DNA of 50,458 nt from a candidate division FCPU426 bacterium (GTDB lineage Bacteria; Oederibacteriota; Muellerivitia; Muellerivitales; Muellerivitaceae): contig PLZG01000020.1 in NCBI GenBank assembly GCA_003152075.1, forward strand, positions 1 through 50,458, written 5' to 3'. The translations under genes were made by a program, and so were the position numbers. Below are positions 8,588-20,998 of the stretch, in pieces. Every line of letters begins with the position of its first letter. Position 1 is the first letter of the stretch. The notes under the pieces were generated by a model, which saw nothing but the letters and a program-made list of their open reading frames with translations, did no database searches and was not told where the DNA came from.

Positions 8588-8936
8588 GGGGAGAGGTGTC
8601 AGTCGTCATTTATCATTATTTTGGTTCTTCCGCCGGAAAAAGCGACTTGGGATGACAGGCACGATTCCTATCCAAACATGAAGAAGAAAATTATTCCGAA
8701 ATTGAAACTGTAAGAGACGGAGATTGAGAGATTTATGCCTTTATCGGTTTTAGCTCCTTAATTGAGGTTGTCCACGACGGGGACCCTTCGTGGACAGGTA
8801 GTTGGACTTGAGGAACGGTCTCTAGCCACACACCTTCATACTTTTATACCTTTAAACTTTTTCACCTTCGCGCTTTCCCACTTTTAACCTTTTTAAATTT
8901 TTATGGGATTTGTATTTCCATCCTTTGCCCTAAGCC
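8588..8936. other. Intergenic, no gene seen; one strong hairpin
   Basis: No credible coding frame. TGTCCACGA (8769-8777) and TCGTGGACA (8788-8796) form a perfect 9-bp hairpin with a 10-nt loop. It has no T-run, so it is not an obvious intrinsic terminator. From 8820 to 8925 the plus strand is pyrimidine-rich. The genes on either side converge. Confidence 0.6.
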
Positions 8937-9066: not shown

Positions 9067-11628
9067 TTAGGGCACCACCAATTCCATCTTCTGCCGCTTT
9101 GGATTAAAGAGCCGGTTTTTGTAAAAGTTCCCCAAGAGAGGCCCGCTACCCCAAGCGTCTGAAGTCGCCACGTAGAGATTGTGCCGCCCGGGCCCGGGCG
9201 ATTCCAGGGCGCTTTCCAGGTTTGCCTTGCCCGCCGGCTGTTTGGTATCCGCGTCCCAGCTCCAAACCCCATCGCCGGGTTGTATGGCTCCAAGATCAAT
9301 TGGACTTCCCGCCCAAACCAGCTTCACCCGGCATTGCCCGTCCAGCATCAAGCCTTGGAAAAGGTAGGGCATGCCGGTGACTGGCGCTTTGCGCCCAGCC
9401 CCGGCGGCGTCGATCCAAAATTCAAAAGCGGAAACTAAATGGCCCAAACCCTCTTTGGTGGGGCATTGCACGATGAATGGTTTTTTCAAGCCGTTCACCA
9501 CCAAACCCAATTGAAAAAGGGTTTGGGTTCCATTTTTGATTTCGTCGCAATGGATGGCCTTCACGTCCTCCCAGTAAAAATCAATCTTGGCGGGGCCGCC
9601 CAGGAAGCCCCCGATGGGGAGCCCGTCCCCATAGGTCAGGGTGAAGCCGGTCATGGCGGGGGAGACCGACAGGACATGTTGTTTGTCGTGCCCCACGATC
9701 AGGGAATATTTTTCCGGGTCCTGCAGGTCCCCCAACCGGCGGATGGACATGTCCCCGCTCATAGGAACGGGCTCGAAGGGGAAGGCCTTGATCCAGCCGG
9801 GTCCGGGCACTGCGGCGATTTCGGCTTCGAGATAACTCCGGTCTTCGATATCCGAATTCCAGGGTTGGGTCCCCGGATTTATCGGTTTTGGGGGTGATGA
9901 CGCTGTGATGTTTTGTTTTTCAACAACGGGTTTTAATCCTTCTTGGTGGACTTGGCGTCTTGGCGGTTCAATAGCCGTTGCCGTACTTGGCCTGTCCCCC
10001 GTAGCCTTGGCGAAGGGGGAGGGTTCAATCGCTTTTGGCTGTTCCTCCGTCTTTGCCGGCTTTTTAACCCAAAACTCAGAACTCAAAACTGAAAACTTCC
10101 TTTTAATCGCCCCGCCCACGCTTAAGTGATTAAAGAAATTCTGATAGGCCAGCCAGCCAAGGACAAACAGAAAAACCCAAGGCAGGACCCACTCCAAAAC
10201 CTTCCCTCCCGCACCTCCCACAAGCCTAGCCAGCCCCCGGGCCGCCTGGCGGGTACGGTGAAAAAGCTCCCTAGCCACCCATTTCAAAGCCTTCCAGGCC
10301 AGGTGCCCCATCCACTTAATCGGAACCAGTAGGGTGGCCCCGGCCAGGATCAAGAATTCCCACCAGGTAGGCCTTTCCCCCTTCTTGATCTTGGCCCGGA
10401 TGCGGCTGACGATGGATACCCCGGCCAGCCCATCCCAAAGGAGGCTTTCCGCGTTTCCCATGGTTGGTACCTTAGGTTCTTTAAGCTTGCTGTCATTGCG
10501 AGGAGTGCCCGCCGAATAGGCGGGCGTTAACGACGCGGCAACCCCAGTTTTAGATAATTTCTCTTCCCCAGGTTGTGGGTTAGCTGTCGACTGCCTGTCC
10601 CCCGAAGCCTCGGCGGAGGGGGATGGACTGCCGACCGTCGACTGCCTTTCATCCTTCTGCTTGCTGAAGTCTTCCGGCTGTTGCCCCCCCTTCACCCCCT
10701 CCACCAGCCTTTTGACCTGGGCCTCGGTCATCTGGTGGTCGTAGGCAACTGCCAAGGTTCGGCGGACCAGGTCTTGGGTTTCCGGGGGGATGGGCGGGTA
10801 GGGCCATAACTTTTGGGATTCCACTCCTGCCGCCTTCACCCCGGGCTTGAGACCCGTCCCTGGGCCTAAACCAGCCAGTTGGGCGGCGGCCCTATCCGAA
10901 ATACCCCAAATTCCCTTATTTGAATTGTCCGCGTCGCGGACAATTAAGGCCCTAGCCTCGGTGTTTAAGAGGGGCAAGAGGCTTAAAGCACGAGTGACCT
11001 TATCCTTATTCATCTTCAATTCGACCGCAACCTGCCTTTGGGTCAGGTTGGGGTCGGCTTGAATGTACTGTTCGATGGTCTGGTAAGCCGCCCACCATCC
11101 CCTGTCCCTAACGTCATTGTCCAAATGGGTGATTTTGACCGCCTCTTTGGCTGTCGGGTTCAGGATAGAGCCCGGTATGGACTCCCTTTTGAGGTAGTCA
11201 AAGGCCCTGTACCGGTTTTCCCCGGCCAGGATCACGTAATTAAAATCCCCTACCGTCCATGGTTGGCCGTCCGCCCGAAGGCGGGGGTTTTCCGGATGGA
11301 TTTGGGCACACTCCCCTTTCGCTAAAGCTTCAGGGGACAGGCCGGCAAAGGGATTAGCTTTATCCAGCCGGACCTTGATGTGGTTTAAAAGACCGGCTTC
11401 GGCGATGTTTTGGCCCAGTTCCTGGATCTGTTGGTCGGTAATGGGCGGCCCGGGGTTGCCCGGGTTGGGGCGGATGTTGGCGAGGGGGACTTCCTGAACC
11501 CCGGGGAACATTTCCGGCAACGCGGCTAAAAGGTCATTGAGGGCTTGATCTGAACTTGCCTGCGGTGAGTGGTTCGAGTGCCTCACCATTTCGACTTCGG
11601 GAGTCGAATCCGTCGAGGTTGATTCCAT
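9067..11628 (-). CDS. Membrane-anchored ParB/Spo0J-like protein with repeat-built linkers
   Basis: An 853-residue protein. The ATG at 11628 is preceded by AAGGAG. Residues 45-180 resemble a ParB/sulfiredoxin N-domain with GENRYRA at 136-142. Residues 194-218 (NLTQRQVAVELKMNKDKV) form the ParB helix-turn-helix. A hydrophobic segment near 478-496 (WVLPWVFLFVLGWLAYQ) should anchor it in the inner membrane, followed by a long C-terminal region I do not recognise. Several stretches are translations of palindromic repeats: residues 96-106, 335-345, 362-379, about 509-521 and 537-546. Chromosomal ParB proteins are soluble CTPase clamps, and no parA or parS was seen here, so a segregation role is doubtful. 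It could be a membrane-tethered nucleotide- or DNA-binding regulator. It stands alone between repeat-rich spacers. Confidence 0.75.
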   Translation of the reverse strand: MESTSTDSTPEVEMVRHSNHSPQASSDQALNDLLAALPEMFPGVQEVPLANIRPNPGNPGPPITDQQIQELGQNIAEAGLLNHIKVRLDKANPFAGLSPEALAKGECAQIHPENPRLRADGQPWTVGDFNYVILAGENRYRAFDYLKRESIPGSILNPTAKEAVKITHLDNDVRDRGWWAAYQTIEQYIQADPNLTQRQVAVELKMNKDKVTRALSLLPLLNTEARALIVRDADNSNKGIWGISDRAAAQLAGLGPGTGLKPGVKAAGVESQKLWPYPPIPPETQDLVRRTLAVAYDHQMTEAQVKRLVEGVKGGQQPEDFSKQKDERQSTVGSPSPSAEASGDRQSTANPQPGEEKLSKTGVAASLTPAYSAGTPRNDSKLKEPKVPTMGNAESLLWDGLAGVSIVSRIRAKIKKGERPTWWEFLILAGATLLVPIKWMGHLAWKALKWVARELFHRTRQAARGLARLVGGAGGKVLEWVLPWVFLFVLGWLAYQNFFNHLSVGGAIKRKFSVLSSEFWVKKPAKTEEQPKAIEPSPFAKATGDRPSTATAIEPPRRQVHQEGLKPVVEKQNITASSPPKPINPGTQPWNSDIEDRSYLEAEIAAVPGPGWIKAFPFEPVPMSGDMSIRRLGDLQDPEKYSLIVGHDKQHVLSVSPAMTGFTLTYGDGLPIGGFLGGPAKIDFYWEDVKAIHCDEIKNGTQTLFQLGLVVNGLKKPFIVQCPTKEGLGHLVSAFEFWIDAAGAGRKAPVTGMPYLFQGLMLDGQCRVKLVWAGSPIDLGAIQPGDGVWSWDADTKQPAGKANLESALESPGPGRHNLYVATSDAWGSGPLLGNFYKNRLFNPKRQKMELVVP
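9991..10020. repeat. CCTGTCCCCC...GGGGGA palindrome, in-frame in the ParB-like gene
   Basis: A 30-bp element with complementary ends (TCCCCC/GGGGGA) and a core of GTAGCCTTGGCGAA. Read on the coding strand it gives PFAKATGDR. Related copies lie at 10594-10623, 11311-11341 (opposite orientation) and 19136-19164 (intergenic, diverged). Confidence 0.7.
10492..10545. repeat. Partial 'GTCATTGCGAGGAG' element inside the ParB-like gene
   Basis: It begins with GTCATTGCGAGGAG and ends with CGACGCGGCAACCCC, matching the left part of the 8937-9049 element. It also contains a perfect 7-bp hairpin, GCCCGCC-GAATA-GGCGGGC (10507-10525). It is translated in the ParB-like protein as GVAASLTPAYSAGTPRNDS, with no stop or frameshift. 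Confidence 0.7.
10594..10623. repeat. Second in-frame CCTGTCCCCC palindrome
   Basis: CCTGTCCCCCGAAGCCTCGG followed by CGGAGGGGGA, nearly the same as 9991-10020. It is flanked by GTCGACTGCC-type units (about 10585 and 10635), which give the QSTV-like residues of the linker. Confidence 0.7.
11311..11341. repeat. Third CCTGTCCCC palindrome, reversed, within the ParB domain
   Basis: On the coding strand it reads CCTGTCCCCTGAAGCTTTAG then CGAAAGGGGAG, encoding about residues 96-106 (GLSPEALAKGE). It is in the opposite orientation to the other two copies and still in frame. Confidence 0.6.
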
Positions 11629-11796
11629 GGCATTCTCCTTTGGCTTAATCTGTAACCTGCCGACTGTCGACCGTAGACTGATTTTTACACCCTGAAAGCA
11701 TTTTTAGGCTAGTCCCAAAGATTTGTCCGCTTTTTGGAAAATCCAACAGGCATAAGCCTTTTTCCAACTCGGAACCGCACTATTTTTGACCTGCCT

Positions 11797-11865: not shown

Positions 11866-11937
11866 GTTTGGAGGGACAAATAGTTTGAGGATTTGAAAGG
11901 GGAGGGGGAGGGAGGGGGAGTAGAATTAGTCGGGTTT
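11866..11937. repeat. 72-bp G-rich direct repeat, copy 1 (upstream of caspase gene)
   Basis: It matches 14632-14703 over 72 bp with about 6 differences and no gaps. The core is TAGTTTGAGGATTTGAAAG, then four G-runs separated by single A bases, then a TAGAATTAGTCGGGTTT end. The G-runs satisfy the G-quadruplex pattern. It ends about 37 bp before the caspase ATG, so it probably carries regulatory information for that gene. Confidence 0.85.
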
Positions 11938-11974
11938 CGTGAGAAGAATTAATTTTATTTCGAGGGAAACAATT

Positions 11975-13765
11975 ATGAATCGGTGTGCGGTTGTGATCGG
12001 AGTGAACAAAACCGGAAATTTGCCAGTGCTCGGGGGGGCAGTTTCTGGAGCGGAGCAGTTCGCAGATTGGGCTAAGGGGCAGGATATTGAAGTGTCTTTG
12101 CTGACGGATAAAAACGGCAAAAAGGTCACCTTGGGTGAAATCAAAAAAGTGATCAAAGCATTTTCCGAAACAAATTCTTTCTCGCAAATGATTGTTTTCT
12201 TTTCCGGCCACGGAATTTTAACGGCGCCAAATTGTGAGCTTTGGCTTTTGTCCGGCGCCCCCGACGATCCGGATGAGGCGGTAAATGTTGTGGGATCTAT
12301 CGCTCTCGCCAGGAATATCGGAATTCCACATGTGGTTGTCATTTCGGATGCCTGCCGGTCCAGGCCGAACGAAACCAAGCTAAGCCAAGTTACGGGAGGT
12401 TTAATATTCCCGAACGAATCCCCCAAAACGCCGCGGCCAGCCTTGGATGTGTTTTACGCGACCTTGCCTGGTAATCCAGCCTCGGAAGTATCGTCCAAGG
12501 AAGCCGTGGATAATTATCGCGGAATTTTCACCGAGTGCATGCTGAAGGGGCTCAAGGGGAAGGTGCCGAAAGTAATTGTTCCCGTCTCCGAAAGCGGCAA
12601 GCCATCAAATAAGTCGAAGCAAACTTGGGTTGTTCCGTCCCGGGAAATGAAAGAGTACCTTGAGGATGAAGTTCCGGATTCGGCTTCCCAAGTCGACATC
12701 AAGCTTCAACAAAACCCCGATATCCGGGTTGAGTCCAGCCTCCCAGCATTTCTTGCGGAAGTTGCCCCGCCACCGGGTCCGTCTTCGAAGCCCCCAAGGC
12801 CACCTATTCAACCGGATTCATTTGATATTCGCCCCGGTTCCTTAAAGGGAAAGAAAGGTTTTGGGGGTATGGGGGCCGGACTGAATATTCGGGAGCCGAT
12901 AAACCGGATTGCTCGGCCTGAAAAAGCACGCAATATATCGCAAAGTCAGGATTTTAATGATTCCGTTGAAAGGCTTTCGCAAGTGCGGGGCCGGGAGAGT
13001 TTCGAAACTCAGACCGGTTTTACCGTAGTAGGGGAAAAGGTCGCGAAAGTCGCCGTTAAGTTTGAAGGTTACGATCTTTTCAATGAATTTGAGGCGGATC
13101 AAATTCGAGTCAAACAAAATCCGGACCTAAGTTTCCCGCGGTCCCTGCTTTTGAAATTCCGCAACGGTTCCGTGATTCCACTCGCAATTTTGCCGGGGTT
13201 CATCGGAACTGTGGTGGTGGAAGAGGGCCAAGTGGTCAACGTTATGTATTTTCCCAGTCGTAATAACCCGAGATACATCGAATATGAGGGTTATAGGACA
13301 GAAGTTGAGAGGAGGCGAGCTTACGCGGCAGTCGCGTCTAGAAATGGATTATTTCAATTGAAAGATGACGCGACCGCGATTGAAGCGGCAAATTATCTCC
13401 GCAACATGAAAAGTTTCGATCCCACCTTCGGACTTTATGCCGCATATAGTTACGCTCAGGCGGGTGCGATTGAGGAAATAGAATCGGTTTTCGAATACAT
13501 GAGCCAGGAACGGGAACCGATAATTTTTGACGTCGGAATGCTGGCCCGAAAAATAATGGACCACATACCGAGTATAAATCAGCGTTTTGCGCCTTTTTGT
13601 CCGGTTTTGACCCAGGGTTGGGCACTGTTAGATGCTTATCGGGTCAATCTTCTCATCGAAGTGCAGGGAGCGGGTCGCCACCTGAAACCCGGGCTTTGGA
13701 CCACATTTGAGGAGGATTCGGTGAATGAACTTTGGGATAAGGTTGTTAAGGGAGACATCGAATGA
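11975..13765 (+). CDS. Caspase-like (peptidase C14) protease with C-terminal extension
   Basis: A 596-residue protein. The ATG at 11975 is chosen because GAGGGA lies about 9 nt upstream; a GTG at 11939 would overlap the 72-bp repeat. Residues 1-230 have the caspase fold signature: MNRCAVVIGV at the start, the catalytic His in FFSGHG (His79) and the catalytic Cys in VISDACRS (Cys127). A Pro-rich linker follows (about 265-285), then a Gly-rich stretch and a long C-terminal region I do not recognise, with helices near 470-550. No membrane segment is seen. The stop overlaps the start of the hydrolase gene by 4 nt, so the two are co-translated. Bacterial caspase-like proteases commonly act in conflict or cell-death systems by cleaving a partner; the neighbour is the obvious candidate. 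That role is inference. Confidence 0.88.
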   Translation: MNRCAVVIGVNKTGNLPVLGGAVSGAEQFADWAKGQDIEVSLLTDKNGKKVTLGEIKKVIKAFSETNSFSQMIVFFSGHGILTAPNCELWLLSGAPDDPDEAVNVVGSIALARNIGIPHVVVISDACRSRPNETKLSQVTGGLIFPNESPKTPRPALDVFYATLPGNPASEVSSKEAVDNYRGIFTECMLKGLKGKVPKVIVPVSESGKPSNKSKQTWVVPSREMKEYLEDEVPDSASQVDIKLQQNPDIRVESSLPAFLAEVAPPPGPSSKPPRPPIQPDSFDIRPGSLKGKKGFGGMGAGLNIREPINRIARPEKARNISQSQDFNDSVERLSQVRGRESFETQTGFTVVGEKVAKVAVKFEGYDLFNEFEADQIRVKQNPDLSFPRSLLLKFRNGSVIPLAILPGFIGTVVVEEGQVVNVMYFPSRNNPRYIEYEGYRTEVERRRAYAAVASRNGLFQLKDDATAIEAANYLRNMKSFDPTFGLYAAYSYAQAGAIEEIESVFEYMSQEREPIIFDVGMLARKIMDHIPSINQRFAPFCPVLTQGWALLDAYRVNLLIEVQGAGRHLKPGLWTTFEEDSVNELWDKVVKGDIE

Positions 13766-14619
13766 AACTTGTATTTATTCATGGAAGGGATCAGCAAAAA
13801 AAAGACCCTGTGAAGTTACAAAATCAATGGGTTAGGGCATTGAAGAAAGGCCTGAAAGCGGCCGATTTGAAATTCCCGTCGAAAATCGATATACATTTTC
13901 CTTTCTATGGGGACAAGCTCGATGAATTGATAAAGAAACTGGACACTCCATTGATTGATGGGGTGAAGTTCCGCGGAGACGGCACGAATAGCGATGAGGC
14001 GTCTTTCCGGGGCGCATTGCTAAGCGAAATGGCGGAGAAGGCGGGGATCACCGATTCGGAAATTCAAAAACATTATCAGGGTAGTTCCCGAGAAAAAGGC
14101 GTGCTGAATTGGGGATGGGTCCAGGCCATTCTCAAGGCCCTGGATGGCACTCCGCTGGGGGAGGCCGCCATCGATTCTTTCGCGCGCGATGTCTTTGTTT
14201 ACCTGACCAACCCAACCGTTCGAAAGACCATTGAAGGAATCGTAAAACCTTTTTTATCGAGCGGTCCTTGTGTGGTTGTGGGCCATTCACTGGGTTCGGT
14301 GGTTGGTTATAACTTACTGAGCCAAACAAAAGCAGTAGTCAAAAAATACGTTACAGTTGGTTCACCTCTTGCGATTAAAGCGATTAAACAAAAGCTGGTC
14401 TTGCCGCTCTCCATGCCTATCAGCACCCAGGCTTGGTTTAACGCACTGGATCGTCGGGATGGCGTGGCCCTTTATCCTTTGGATAGTGAACACTTTAAAA
14501 TTAAGCCCCCGATCAAAAACAAAACCGACGTGAATAATACCACCGCTAATCGGCATGGTATCAAAGGCTATCTGGATGATCCTGTTGTAGCTCGTGAAAT
14601 TTACAAAGTGCTTGTTTGA
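13762..14619 (+). CDS. Alpha/beta hydrolase (esterase/lipase-like), partner of the caspase-like protease
   Basis: A 285-residue protein opening with a classic hydrolase strand, MKLVFIHGRD. The nucleophile elbow is GHSLGS (Ser176). Likely partners are Asp233 in RRDGVA and His265 in NRHG. Residues 60-165 form a long insertion between the first strand and the elbow, probably a lid or cap. No signal peptide or membrane span is seen, so it should be cytosolic. It overlaps the caspase gene by ATGA. A protease-activated lipase or esterase would suit an abortive-infection effector, but no substrate can be read from the sequence. The downstream spacer carries the second 72-bp repeat. Confidence 0.85.
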   Translation: MKLVFIHGRDQQKKDPVKLQNQWVRALKKGLKAADLKFPSKIDIHFPFYGDKLDELIKKLDTPLIDGVKFRGDGTNSDEASFRGALLSEMAEKAGITDSEIQKHYQGSSREKGVLNWGWVQAILKALDGTPLGEAAIDSFARDVFVYLTNPTVRKTIEGIVKPFLSSGPCVVVGHSLGSVVGYNLLSQTKAVVKKYVTVGSPLAIKAIKQKLVLPLSMPISTQAWFNALDRRDGVALYPLDSEHFKIKPPIKNKTDVNNTTANRHGIKGYLDDPVVAREIYKVLV

Positions 14620-14631
14620 TTATTCGCGGCC

Positions 14632-14703
14632 GTTTGGAGGCCGAAATAGTTTGAGGATTTGAAATGGGAGGGGGAGGGAGGGGGTGTAGAATTGGTCGGG
14701 TTT
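14632..14703. repeat. 72-bp G-rich direct repeat, copy 2 (upstream of AT-rich membrane gene)
   Basis: The second copy of 11866-11937, in the same orientation. It starts 13 bp after the hydrolase stop and ends 99 bp before the next gene. The four G-runs are kept. The two copies bracket the caspase/hydrolase pair exactly, which could be a cassette boundary or a shared upstream control element. Confidence 0.85.
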
Positions 14704-17548: not shown

Positions 17549-18048
17549 ATGGCCGTCATCAAGGTATCGGACAAGCTGCCTATCGATTTCAAATACAACC
17601 TCAAGGTCTATTTCAGCTTCCTGAAGAAATACAAAGGGGCACCAATTCCTTATACCTCTGGAATTAGCACACCCACCCATCGGGCTAAAGCCCGAGGGCG
17701 ATAAAAATCATCGAGGCTTTTGTCTCGGCTTGAGGCCTCGACAAAGGGGCCTGCGTATTACTGGTTTTGCTGGTCTTCGCCCTGAGCACCCTGGACCTGG
17801 CTTTTAATTACACCTTCAGCCGCATCGTGGACAGGGCCACGCTTTTCACCCAGGGAAAAATGGCACTGGAGGCCTTTAACCAATTCCTCCTTCTCGCCTT
17901 CGCGGCCCTTTTGGCCATACCCGCCATACGGGGGATGGGGCGGTGGGTTTACATGGGCAGCATCAACCGGCTGGAAAGCCGACTGATCGCCGACATCAAG
18001 CGCTACTTCTTCGACCACTTGCTTTCCCTTTCCCACGGGTTCCACAGC
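17549..18048 (+). pseudogene. Broken 5' copy of the downstream ABC exporter gene
   Basis: It matches 19205-19594 closely, apart from a 110-bp insertion at 17641-17750. The start region (ATGGCCGTCATCAAGG) and residues up to FFDHLLSLSHGFHS are kept. The insertion introduces a stop and shifts the frame (110 is not a multiple of 3). Homology stops abruptly at 18048, where unrelated sequence leading to VapBC begins. The product would lack most of the membrane domain and the whole ATPase. Confidence 0.9.
17641..17750. mobile_element. 110-bp hairpin element inserted in the ABC pseudogene
   Basis: The intact paralogue reads AATACAAAGGGGCTTGCG. The broken copy has ACAAAGGGGC at both edges of the insertion (17631-17640 and 17741-17750), like a 10-bp target duplication. 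Inside are three hairpins: 17642-17667 (CCAATTCC/GGAATTAG, followed by CACA), 17681-17694 (CGGGCT/AGCCCG) and 17719-17745 (TTTGTC/GACAAA around TCGGCTTGAGGCCTC). The last right arm lies within the duplicated 10-mer and its preceding G. Confidence 0.8.
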
Positions 18049-18084
18049 GTCAAAAAAAATCCTAATCCGGCCCCGTCATATTCT

Positions 18085-18101
18085 GGTTGCATAATGCAAC
18101 C
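18085..18101. promoter_or_regulatory. Palindrome upstream of vapB, probable autoregulatory operator
   Basis: A perfect 17-bp inverted repeat, GGTTGCAT-A-ATGCAACC, 43 bp before the antitoxin ATG. Ribbon-helix-helix antitoxins of VapBC/FitAB pairs typically repress their own operon at such palindromes. Confidence 0.6.
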
Positions 18102-18144
18102 AAGCGGTCTTATGATGTTTTTAAGTCCTTGAAGGAGGTTTTAT

Positions 18145-18393
18145 ATGTCCATCCTGCATGTTCGAAACGTTCCCGAGCCCCTCTACCGGGAAATCAAGAA
18201 ATTGGCCGAGGCGGAAAAACGCTCCTTCGGCTCCGAGGTACTGCATTTGCTGGGCCACGCGGTTCAGGAAGAGCAGGCGGTATACGGGCGGAAAAATATT
18301 TTGAAAGATATTGAACGACGCCGCAAAAAGATAAAGTTGAAACCCGGGACTCCCGACAGCACCACCCTCCTGCGGGAAGACCGGGACAGGTGA
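18145..18393 (+). CDS. Antitoxin, FitA/VapB-type ribbon-helix-helix
   Basis: An 82-residue protein with a strong GGAGG site (AAGGAGGTTTTAT before the ATG). The N-terminus MSILHVRNVPEPLYREIKKL fits the strand and first helix of a ribbon-helix-helix DNA-binding domain. The charged, flexible C-terminus would wrap the toxin. It overlaps the PIN gene by 4 nt (GTGA), as in most VapBC operons. It binds and neutralises the toxin and probably represses at the palindrome 18085-18101. The pair lies between the broken and intact copies of the ABC exporter gene. Confidence 0.88.
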   Translation: MSILHVRNVPEPLYREIKKLAEAEKRSFGSEVLHLLGHAVQEEQAVYGRKNILKDIERRRKKIKLKPGTPDSTTLLREDRDR

Positions 18394-18839
18394 TAACGGA
18401 ACCTGGGTGCTGGGTGGTCGACGCCAGCGTGGGTATCAAGCTTTTTGTCCCGGAAACACACTCGGAGCAAGCCGATGCTTTATTCAATCCCTTAGAAGGC
18501 GCCCCCCCGGATTTGGTTGTCCCGGATTTGTTTTACGCCGAATGCGCGAACATTCTTTGGAAATATGTCCGGCGTTTTGGCTACCCCCTTTCGGAAGCCG
18601 GAAAAAACATGGCCGCCTTGAAAGAAATGAAATTGAGCACCGTACCTTCCGCCTTGCTCGTGGAAAAAGCGTTGGAATTGGCTGTGCGCCTTGAAGTAAC
18701 GGCTTACGACGCCTGCTACCTGGCCTTGGCCGAGGACCTGCGGGCCACGCTGGTGACGGCCGATGAAAAACTGTTGAAGCGGCTCAAGGGGCGGCGTATC
18801 CAGGCGGTTTGGATCGGTGATTTTTCCAAGAAGGATTGA
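18390..18839 (+). CDS. VapC-type toxin, PIN-domain ribonuclease
   Basis: A 149-residue PIN protein starting at a GTG that overlaps the antitoxin stop. Acidic active-site residues are visible: Asp11 in VVDASVGIK, Glu in YAECANI, Asp in YDACYLALA and Asp in VTADEKLL. This fits a Mg-dependent endoribonuclease, usually cutting tRNA or rRNA and halting translation when freed from its antitoxin. The length is normal and no residue is missing, so it should be active. A short T-rich, AT-rich stretch follows the stop. Confidence 0.92.
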   Translation: MITEPGCWVVDASVGIKLFVPETHSEQADALFNPLEGAPPDLVVPDLFYAECANILWKYVRRFGYPLSEAGKNMAALKEMKLSTVPSALLVEKALELAVRLEVTAYDACYLALAEDLRATLVTADEKLLKRLKGRRIQAVWIGDFSKKD

Positions 18840-19204: not shown

Positions 19205-20998
19205 ATGACCGGCATCAAGGTATCGGACAAGCTGCCCATCGACTTTAAATACAACCTCAAGGTCTATTTCGGCTTCCTGAAGAAATACAAAGGGGCTTGC
19301 GTATTGCTGGTTTTGCTGGTCTTCGCCCTGAGCACACTGGACCTGGCCTTTAATTACACCTTCAGCCGCATCGTGGACAGGGCCACGCTTTTCACCCAGG
19401 GAAAAATGGCCCTGGAGGCCTTTGACCAATTCCTCCTTCTCGCCTTCGCGGCTCTTTTGGCCATACCCGCCATACGGGGGCTGGGGCGGTGGCTTTACCT
19501 GGGCAGCATCAACCGGCTGGAAAGCCGCCTGATCGCGGACATTAAGCGCTACTTCTTCGACCACCTGCTTTCCCTTTCCCACGGCTTCCACAGCTCGCAC
19601 AAGACCGGGTCCCTCATTTCCCGCCTGGCCCGGGGGTCGGGGTCGGTGGAAACGATGACGGACGTAATCGTCTTTAATTTCGCGCCGGTGTTGTTTCAAT
19701 TGACCCTGATGGGCGCCTCCATCTTTTATTTCACCCTGCCGGTGGGGCTTTCGGTGCTGGCCACCGTGGTGGTTTACGTGGGTTATTCCATCCTGGTCAC
19801 CCAGCAACAGCAGAAGGCCAACGCCCTTTACAACAACATGTCGGACCTGGAAAAGGCCAACATCAGCGACGTGTTCACCAATATCGAATCCATCAAGTAT
19901 TTCGCCAAGGAAGGGGACGTGAGGAACCGGTTCTTCGAGCTGAGCGAGAAGACCCGGCGCTACCAACTGGGTTTTTGGGACCAGTTCAAGCGCCTGGAAG
20001 GGGGGCAGATTTTCATTTCCGGGCTGGGCGCCTTTTTCGTGGTTTACCTTTCGCTTAAAAGCCTCACCGCCGGGCAGATGACCATCGGCACCTTCGTGCT
20101 GGTTTTCACCAACTACGGCACTTTGCTAATGCCCTTGTCCGGCTTCATCATGGGGGTGCGCAACATGTACCGGGCCATCGCGGATTTCGAGGACCTTTTT
20201 CAATACGGCAAGCTGGAAAACGAGATCAAGGACCGGCCGGGCGCCAAGGCGTTTTCCGTTCACCGGGGGGCTATTGAGTTTAAGAACGTGGGCTTCACCT
20301 ACCGCAAAAAGCCCGTGCTGTCGGGTTTCACGCTGAAGGTGCCGCCCCACAAGAGGCTGGCGGTGGTGGGGCCCTCAGGGGCCGGGAAAACCACTTTGAT
20401 CCGCCTGGTGTACAGGCTTTACGACCTGGAGAAGGGGGAGATAAGCCTGGACGGAGCCGATATCGCGGGGGTCACCCAGGCTTCCTTACGGGAAGCCCTC
20501 AGCATGGTGCCGCAGGAATGCATCCTCTTCGACGACAGCATTTACAACAACATCGCCTTCTCCAACCCGGGGGCATCCCGCCGGCAGGTTTTCGCGGCCA
20601 TCCGCTACGCCCAGCTGGGGAAGTTTATCGAGGGACTGCCGGAAAAGGAAAACACCATCGTGGGGGAAAGGGGGGTGAAGCTATCCGGCGGGGAAAAGCA
20701 GAGGGTTTCCATCGCCCGGGCGCTTTTGGCGGACAAGAAGATACTCATATTGGACGAGGCCACTTCCTCGCTGGATTCGCAGACCGAGCACGAGATCCAG
20801 GAGGGCTTGAAGGGCCTGATGAAGGGAAGGACCTGCATCCTCATCGCCCACCGGCTTTCCACCATCATGAGCGCGGACATTATCGCGGTGCTGGACAAGG
20901 GGAAGGTGGTTCAGCAGGGTAGCCACCGGGAGTTGATAAGGAAACCGGGACTGTATAGGAAACTTTGGAACTTGCAAAAGGGCGGGTACATCGAGTGA
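19205..20998 (+). CDS. ABC exporter, Atm1/HMT1-like (fused membrane and ATPase domains)
   Basis: A 597-residue half-transporter. The membrane domain spans residues 1-330 with about six helices. NIESIKYFAKEG matches the conserved loop of Atm1-type exporters (usually NYETVKYF). The ATPase has Walker A GPSGAGKTTL (from about residue 389), signature LSGGEKQRVS, Walker B ILILDEATSSLD and the H-loop AHRLST, so it should be active as a homodimer. Atm1-type proteins export glutathione-linked metals or sulfur compounds; the substrate here is unknown. Its first 390 bp are duplicated at 17549-18048. A hairpin array follows its stop. Confidence 0.92.
   Translation: MTGIKVSDKLPIDFKYNLKVYFGFLKKYKGACVLLVLLVFALSTLDLAFNYTFSRIVDRATLFTQGKMALEAFDQFLLLAFAALLAIPAIRGLGRWLYLGSINRLESRLIADIKRYFFDHLLSLSHGFHSSHKTGSLISRLARGSGSVETMTDVIVFNFAPVLFQLTLMGASIFYFTLPVGLSVLATVVVYVGYSILVTQQQQKANALYNNMSDLEKANISDVFTNIESIKYFAKEGDVRNRFFELSEKTRRYQLGFWDQFKRLEGGQIFISGLGAFFVVYLSLKSLTAGQMTIGTFVLVFTNYGTLLMPLSGFIMGVRNMYRAIADFEDLFQYGKLENEIKDRPGAKAFSVHRGAIEFKNVGFTYRKKPVLSGFTLKVPPHKRLAVVGPSGAGKTTLIRLVYRLYDLEKGEISLDGADIAGVTQASLREALSMVPQECILFDDSIYNNIAFSNPGASRRQVFAAIRYAQLGKFIEGLPEKENTIVGERGVKLSGGEKQRVSIARALLADKKILILDEATSSLDSQTEHEIQEGLKGLMKGRTCILIAHRLSTIMSADIIAVLDKGKVVQQGSHRELIRKPGLYRKLWNLQKGGYIE

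Follow-up and report, generated by a model that had tools for sequence, protein, structure and literature searches.

Unrelated dispersed repeats read in frame in the linkers of a ParB-family gene of candidate division FCPU426

Repeats that are normally confined to the DNA between genes are occasionally found inside them, and the question is then whether the protein makes use of such sequence, merely puts up with it, or is no longer a protein at all. ORF 9067-11628, on the reverse strand of the stretch of candidate division FCPU426 DNA analysed here (the window, 50,458 nucleotides), raises this question, since it had been predicted to encode a ParB-like protein tethered to the membrane with several palindromic repeats translated in frame. 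The ORF proved to be real and open over 853 codons, and its start is preceded by AAAGGAG (11634-11641). It carries at least five repeat-derived segments, as had been proposed, namely three copies of a hairpin element (E1), one of a second element (E2) and an array of heptamers; a likely sixth, PPRRQVHQEGL (9934-9966), had been missed. Very probably this is an intact membrane protein of the ParB family whose linkers, and also a loop in the ParB domain, have gathered unrelated dispersed repeats that are tolerated as linker sequence. Coordinates are given in Table 1.

Table 1. Window coordinates of the ParB-like gene, its parts and repeats, and the nearby promoter-like element.
Feature	Position	Strand	Basis
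ParB-like membrane protein gene, 853 aa	9067-11628	-	intact ORF, 853 codons
C-terminal region, residues 591-853	9070-9858	-	conserved in paralogues, dN/dS 0.35 vs L036
PPRRQVHQEGL, likely sixth repeat segment, linker 2, residues 555-565	9934-9966	-	paralogue alignment
E1 in linker 2, antisense, read SPFAKATGDR, residues 537-546	9991-10020	+	pattern match
Heptamer array (AACTCAG/AACTCAA/AACTGAA), read KFSVLSSEFWVKK, residues 511-523	10061-10097	+	intergenic copies in L072, L042
Membrane block (predicted), residues 422-505: two hydrophobic stretches, basic stretch in between	10114-10365	-	hydropathy
E2 (GTCATTGCGAGG element), 73 nt, antisense, read KLSKTGVAASLTPAYSAGTPRNDSK, residues 357-381	10487-10559	+	intergenic match
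E1 in linker 1, antisense to gene, read SPSAEASGDR, residues 336-345	10594-10623	+	pattern match
ParB region, second part: GENRYRA, DNDVR, HTH	10936-11244	-	TIGR00180 match
E1 in ParB domain, sense, read LSPEALAKGE, residues about 96-106	11312-11341	-	0 mismatches to pattern
ParB_N domain, first part, residues 44-90	11359-11499	-	Pfam
Ribosome-binding site, AAAGGAGA on gene strand	11634-11641	-	sequence
Promoter-like element ahead of divergent caspase-domain gene	11876-11935	+	genome copies

The ParB_N match (Pfam, 6.3e-07) is split by one E1 copy, the alignment ending at residue 90, and this agrees with the expectation that one repeat lies in the ParB domain. A membrane helix had been placed after the ParB/HTH part and called unusual; hydrophobicity is indeed found there and the judgement is reasonable, but hydropathy gives two stretches (residues 425-444 and 472-499), so that a single helix is not clear. 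By the same measure, hydropathy, the protein would be inserted in the membrane. Linker 2 and then an uncharacterised C-terminal region follow the membrane block, and PDZ-like matches at the latter are restricted to some of the 19 family members (PDZ_2 in one, PDZ_6 in two). Structure models were uninformative (mean pLDDT 38.5 for the full length, from a four-row alignment, and 36.7 for the C-terminal region alone), and because of this poor quality linker disorder is not visible in them. A search of Rfam found no known RNA family within the window.

The E1 palindrome CCTGTCCCC occurs five times in the window against 0.63 expected, and three of these copies lie inside the ORF, two one way and one in the opposite orientation, just as the original prediction had it. 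Genome-wide there are 17 E1 copies at no more than three mismatches, and a reversed-pattern control gave none. Six of them are in ParB-like genes, spread over four genes with three in the window gene alone; other ORFs hold another five, of which three sit near the end of the ORF and may owe their place to a wrongly set start or stop; of the rest, five are intergenic and one is unclassified. E1 was found in 16 of the 45 genomes of the phylum that were searched, most abundantly in the relative G002 (31 copies). In a comparison of 81 distinct copies, drawn from 16 genomes, 95% of the outer stem is paired, as against 70% and 54% when slid, and compensatory double changes occur at pairs 8-27, 10-25, 15-20 and 16-19. 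Pairing at these four covarying pairs was unmatched in 2000 shuffles, although, because the search pattern fixed some stem positions and copies within one genome are related, covariation here is supporting rather than independent evidence. It indicates that E1 is probably held as a nucleic-acid hairpin.

E2 had been described as part of a GTCATTGCGAGG element with its own perfect hairpin. The hairpin is present (GTCATTGCGAGGAG lies at 10492-10505, with the perfect 7-bp hairpin GCCCGCC-GAATA-GGCGGGC inside), but the element is not partial, since all 73 nt are there, and an intergenic copy at L045:6231-6301 matches it over 71 nt with 95.8% identity. When the literature was searched for the E2 core sequence, no paper on E2 was found by title. 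The region reading FSVLSSEFWVK, just after the membrane block, was correctly suspected of being repeat-derived, for it is the translation of an array with a 7-nt period. PPRRQVHQEGL aligns with repeat-matching segments of the paralogues L037 and L038, the window copy itself falling below threshold. One further segment of the window gene, which matches L040, was rejected as a repeat, L040 being a real paralogue.

Were these segments conserved and not repeat-like in origin, the idea of capture would fail; instead, the repeat segments of the window gene match intergenic copies elsewhere in its own genome, and in an alignment of homologues the ParB-domain element is cleanly missing, which leaves an empty site of exactly 30 nt. 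At this site the window gene is 30 nt longer than L036, L040, L046, L047 and L048 (L040 being read by eye from the reverse strand), and its ten extra codons, filled by E1, fall between GCC and the codon CAT; L049 has an unrelated loop there. A GH3 glycosidase of the same genome (L109:1-1758) gives the same picture, as E1 (C31:109174-109203) makes up exactly ten extra residues relative to solved GH3 structures, directly before VPRPVKELKGF in an Fn3-like domain. A trypsin-PDZ protease (L102:1307-2383) also has an E1 copy (C24:18037-18066), in the stretch ahead of the protease domain. In linker 1 the E1 copy of the window gene is common to L036 and L038, and one site holds E2 in the window gene, L036 and L037, as the 73-nt subtype in the window and a shorter one in L036 and L037; such differing subtypes suggest either that dispersed copies have recombined, one replacing another, or that insertion has recurred at this place. 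The empty site and the intergenic matches thus bear out the claim that repeats supply predicted protein sequence. The further notion that the added residues are useful is unsupported; linker 1 has a dN/dS of 0.82.

That value comes from a comparison of the window gene with its closest paralogue (L036), in which dN/dS is 0.26 for ParB plus HTH, 0.33 for the membrane block and 0.35 for the C-terminus; for linker 2 the comparison approaches saturation. Constraint is evident in the domains and almost absent from linker 1. A decaying pseudogene, in which the repeats would simply be intergenic DNA invading a dead frame, might be suspected from the several paralogues with stops or lost N-termini: L040 has a stop within the matched region, in L038 a TAA lies upstream, and L039 is spread across two frames, and part of the ParB-like family is therefore decaying. 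For the window gene, however, this explanation is scarcely credible, in view of its 853 open codons, its good ribosome-binding site and the low dN/dS in all domains, and since five or more repeat insertions without any frameshift would be improbable in a dead gene. The original prediction had itself named a pseudogene as an outcome that would overturn it, and the intact frame together with the values of 0.26-0.35 outside the linkers leaves it standing.

We then asked how far the repeats are concentrated in this family. The scan covered a fixed search space of 753 kb of the genome, made up of contig starts and ParB-like loci, and counted any stretch of a gene that matches an intergenic place elsewhere, with protein-level homologues, long matches and gene ends excluded; genes were taken to be ORFs of 150 aa or more, a criterion of length rather than curated calls, and the ParB-like paralogues had been found by protein similarity, not by their repeats. 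Eight of the nine family genes, the window gene included, carry segments (17 in all, some of them weak single matches). Without the window gene there are 15 segments in seven of eight genes, or 9.44 per 10 kb, as compared with 12 segments in 12 of the 506 other genes (0.21 per 10 kb) and 249 segments in 380 pieces of intergenic DNA (15.3 per 10 kb). The paralogues differ from the other genes with a Fisher p of 2e-10, and from 130 length-matched genes with 4e-8; a further count agreed with this. Independent insertion events are fewer than segments, because the linker-1 E1 and E2 are shared by descent. In G002 such segments were found in one of three family members and 11 of 190 other genes, a weak and unclear contrast, and the concentration is therefore shown for one genome only. 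Within the ParB-like family the segments lie mostly in linkers and rarely in conserved domains.

These findings are consistent with a simple course of events. Short dispersed hairpin or heptamer repeats of the genome would insert as units, and an insertion would survive only if it left the frame intact and brought in no stop; in this way the repeats would become predicted translated linker sequence. They would be tolerated there because linkers need only be flexible and hydrophilic, and as tolerated linker sequence they need imply no gain of function. We infer both this manner of insertion and the disorder of the linkers. The repeats do preserve the frame, as had been pointed out, but frame preservation was rejected as a sign of selection for the repeats; survivorship is the best reading and leads one to expect it, because window-type E2 has a single open frame among the six, the one in use.

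Two other explanations take the repeats, or the loci, to be special. Insertions might be selected because they lengthen and diversify the linkers and so tune the reach from the DNA-binding head to the membrane, with repeats recruited as raw material. The family density, about 45-fold that of other genes, would fit this, as would the linker-1 site that holds differing E2 subtypes in three paralogues as if they had been replaced, and the fact that all 11 coding E1 copies of the genome are read in two of the six frames (LSPEALAKGE or SPFAKASGDR), both hydrophilic. We nevertheless consider it highly improbable: linker 1 has a dN/dS near 0.8, the intergenic density is higher still than that of the family, so that neutral tolerance suffices, and one E1 copy of G002 (in L055) is apparently read in a third frame, PVQRSFSEGG, which makes the frame preference a tendency at most. 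It is less far-fetched, though still unlikely, that ParB-like loci are hot spots of insertion or recombination for these elements whatever the protein tolerates. The different E2 subtypes at one linker-1 site, the location of 6 of 17 E1 copies within four genes and the presence of repeats in the intergenic DNA flanking paralogue loci all point that way; against it, the scan segments keep mostly to linkers and out of conserved domains, and descent of the linker-1 E1 and E2 reduces the number of independent events. Neutral tolerance in the linkers thus remains our preferred account. Several unrelated repeat families would then have entered one protein family at near-intergenic density while 506 other genes stayed nearly clean, a natural experiment on the conditions under which mobile DNA turns into protein, namely unconstrained linkers.

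Protein-coding palindromes have usually been described singly, in scattered genes, and Wolbachia reportedly has counterparts of the Rickettsia palindromic elements. The comparison with Rickettsia is apt, since the available portion of PMC2229807 describes RPE elements of 105-146 bp fused in frame within Rickettsia genes; in-frame translated palindromic elements are, from the available text of PMC2229807 and PMC5896051, established in Rickettsia and reported in other bacteria. As with RPEs in the available part of that account (PMC2229807), the elements studied here are dispersed between genes and, in frame, inside genes, where they are tolerated: there are dispersed intergenic copies in the same genome, a conserved nucleic-acid hairpin in the case of E1 (81 distinct copies), and in-frame insertion relative to repeat-free homologues (the ParB-domain site and the GH3 gene). 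They differ in length, E1 being 30 nt and E2 about 54-73 nt and so short of the RPE range given in that text; in that several unrelated repeat families converge on one protein family; and in that the relatives of the window gene belong to candidate division FCPU426. Translated palindromes are already known from Rickettsia, and the new point is their concentration in one gene family. Among the literature matches listed, no report of E1/E2-type elements or of such clustering in one gene family was found. E1 and E2 also resemble REPs, which are palindromes of 20-40 bp (PMC3733652, available part), in being short dispersed hairpins, with a conserved stem in E1. Unlike what would be looked for in a REP system, the genome gave no match to a Y1_Tnp (RAYT-type) gene, and G002 gave 13; a Y1_Tnp mobiliser of E1 has possibly been lost, or acts elsewhere.

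What, then, is the protein that houses these repeats? Its matches to TIGR00180 and nucleoid_noc are partial, weak and below cut-off (for nucleoid_noc, TIGR04285, 43.2 bits as against a curated cut-off of 315 bits), but a profile of 19 family members matched Spo0J (4.1e-25) and Noc (8.5e-22) in the PDB. The ParB_N fold and HTH of the ParB/Noc superfamily are present by sequence, and the putative CTP-site region has GENRYRA and DNDVR, with one Arg of GERR replaced by Asn; GERR and ENxxR are the CTP-site motifs of this superfamily. Scanned neighbours of the ParB-like gene match PBP1, caspase, hydrolase and Fic families and not ParA. A separate canonical ParB (182 bits) is encoded at C96 of the same genome, so that the role of chromosomal partition protein probably does not fall to the ParB-like family. 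Relatives are encoded at three loci of named public records, two of which are MAG contigs assigned to candidate division FCPU426.

Noc, according to the available portion of PMC8429893, is a peripheral CTPase that brings DNA to the membrane through a short N-terminal amphipathic helix of ten residues. The window protein shares with it ParB_N, HTH and a predicted attachment to the membrane, and Noc models and structures are among its best matches. It differs from Noc in that the predicted membrane helices come after the HTH rather than at the N-terminus, and in having another C-terminal region where Noc has its dimerisation domain. By analogy Noc seems the closest functional model; the integral anchor would stand in for the amphipathic helix, and the likeliest role is that of a Noc-like, CTP-dependent DNA-binding clamp at the membrane, serving as a tether or as a regulator of neighbouring genes. 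A literature search on membrane-anchored ParB (titles and abstract starts) found no description of an integral-membrane ParB. The apparent existence of a multi-copy, integral-membrane family related to Noc and Spo0J is the less ordinary part of the case, and it draws attention to a membrane-embedded ParB-like family of an uncultured phylum for which the literature search found no description.

The best handle on the function of the family is a promoter-like element, although its association with these genes is a correlation seen in a single genome. Its 25-nt form (at no more than three mismatches) has ten copies in the genome, none of them farther than 4.3 kb from one of five ParB-like genes, out of nine in all, and in seven of the ten the next same-strand ORF of at least 150 aa begins 9-190 nt downstream. 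Nine copies continue into a G-rich tract and a TAGAATT-like box, a part that the copy at C39 is without. The genes at these elements include those for caspase-domain, beta-lactamase-family and SecY-like proteins and an outer-membrane barrel. The element was absent from eight relatives in which it was looked for, and inspection by eye of the four other loci of the genome and of the relatives revealed no comparable shared element. One could imagine that the family consists of membrane-spanning, ParB-type DNA-binding switches that control their own loci through this element (AAATAGTTTGAGGATTTGAAAGGGG, G-rich tract, TAGAATT), their linkers growing mainly by repeat capture; we think this quite doubtful, but if it were true, selfish DNA would decide how long the tether from chromosome to membrane is.

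Several other features were seen along the way. The 60-nt promoter-like repeat has a second window copy at 14642-14701, and further copies are found at L036, L038, L039 and L041. The caspase-domain gene (11939-14619), which adjoins the ParB-like gene, shares 4 nt with the next gene, which matches alpha/beta-hydrolases weakly. Upstream of a ParB-like paralogue, CGTCTACCGGGAAA-like units form a tandem array (L042:9081-9786). The 30-nt palindrome GTTGTCCACGACGGGGACCCTTCGTGGACA at window positions 8767-8796 is among the commonest dispersed repeats in the sampled part of the genome, where it has about 30 other matches. Finally, the gene at 19205-20998 has near-identical fragments of its 5' part upstream of it (region 17549-18839), with two small ORFs (18145-18393 and 18390-18839) in between that, from their protein starts, would be a putative toxin-antitoxin pair.
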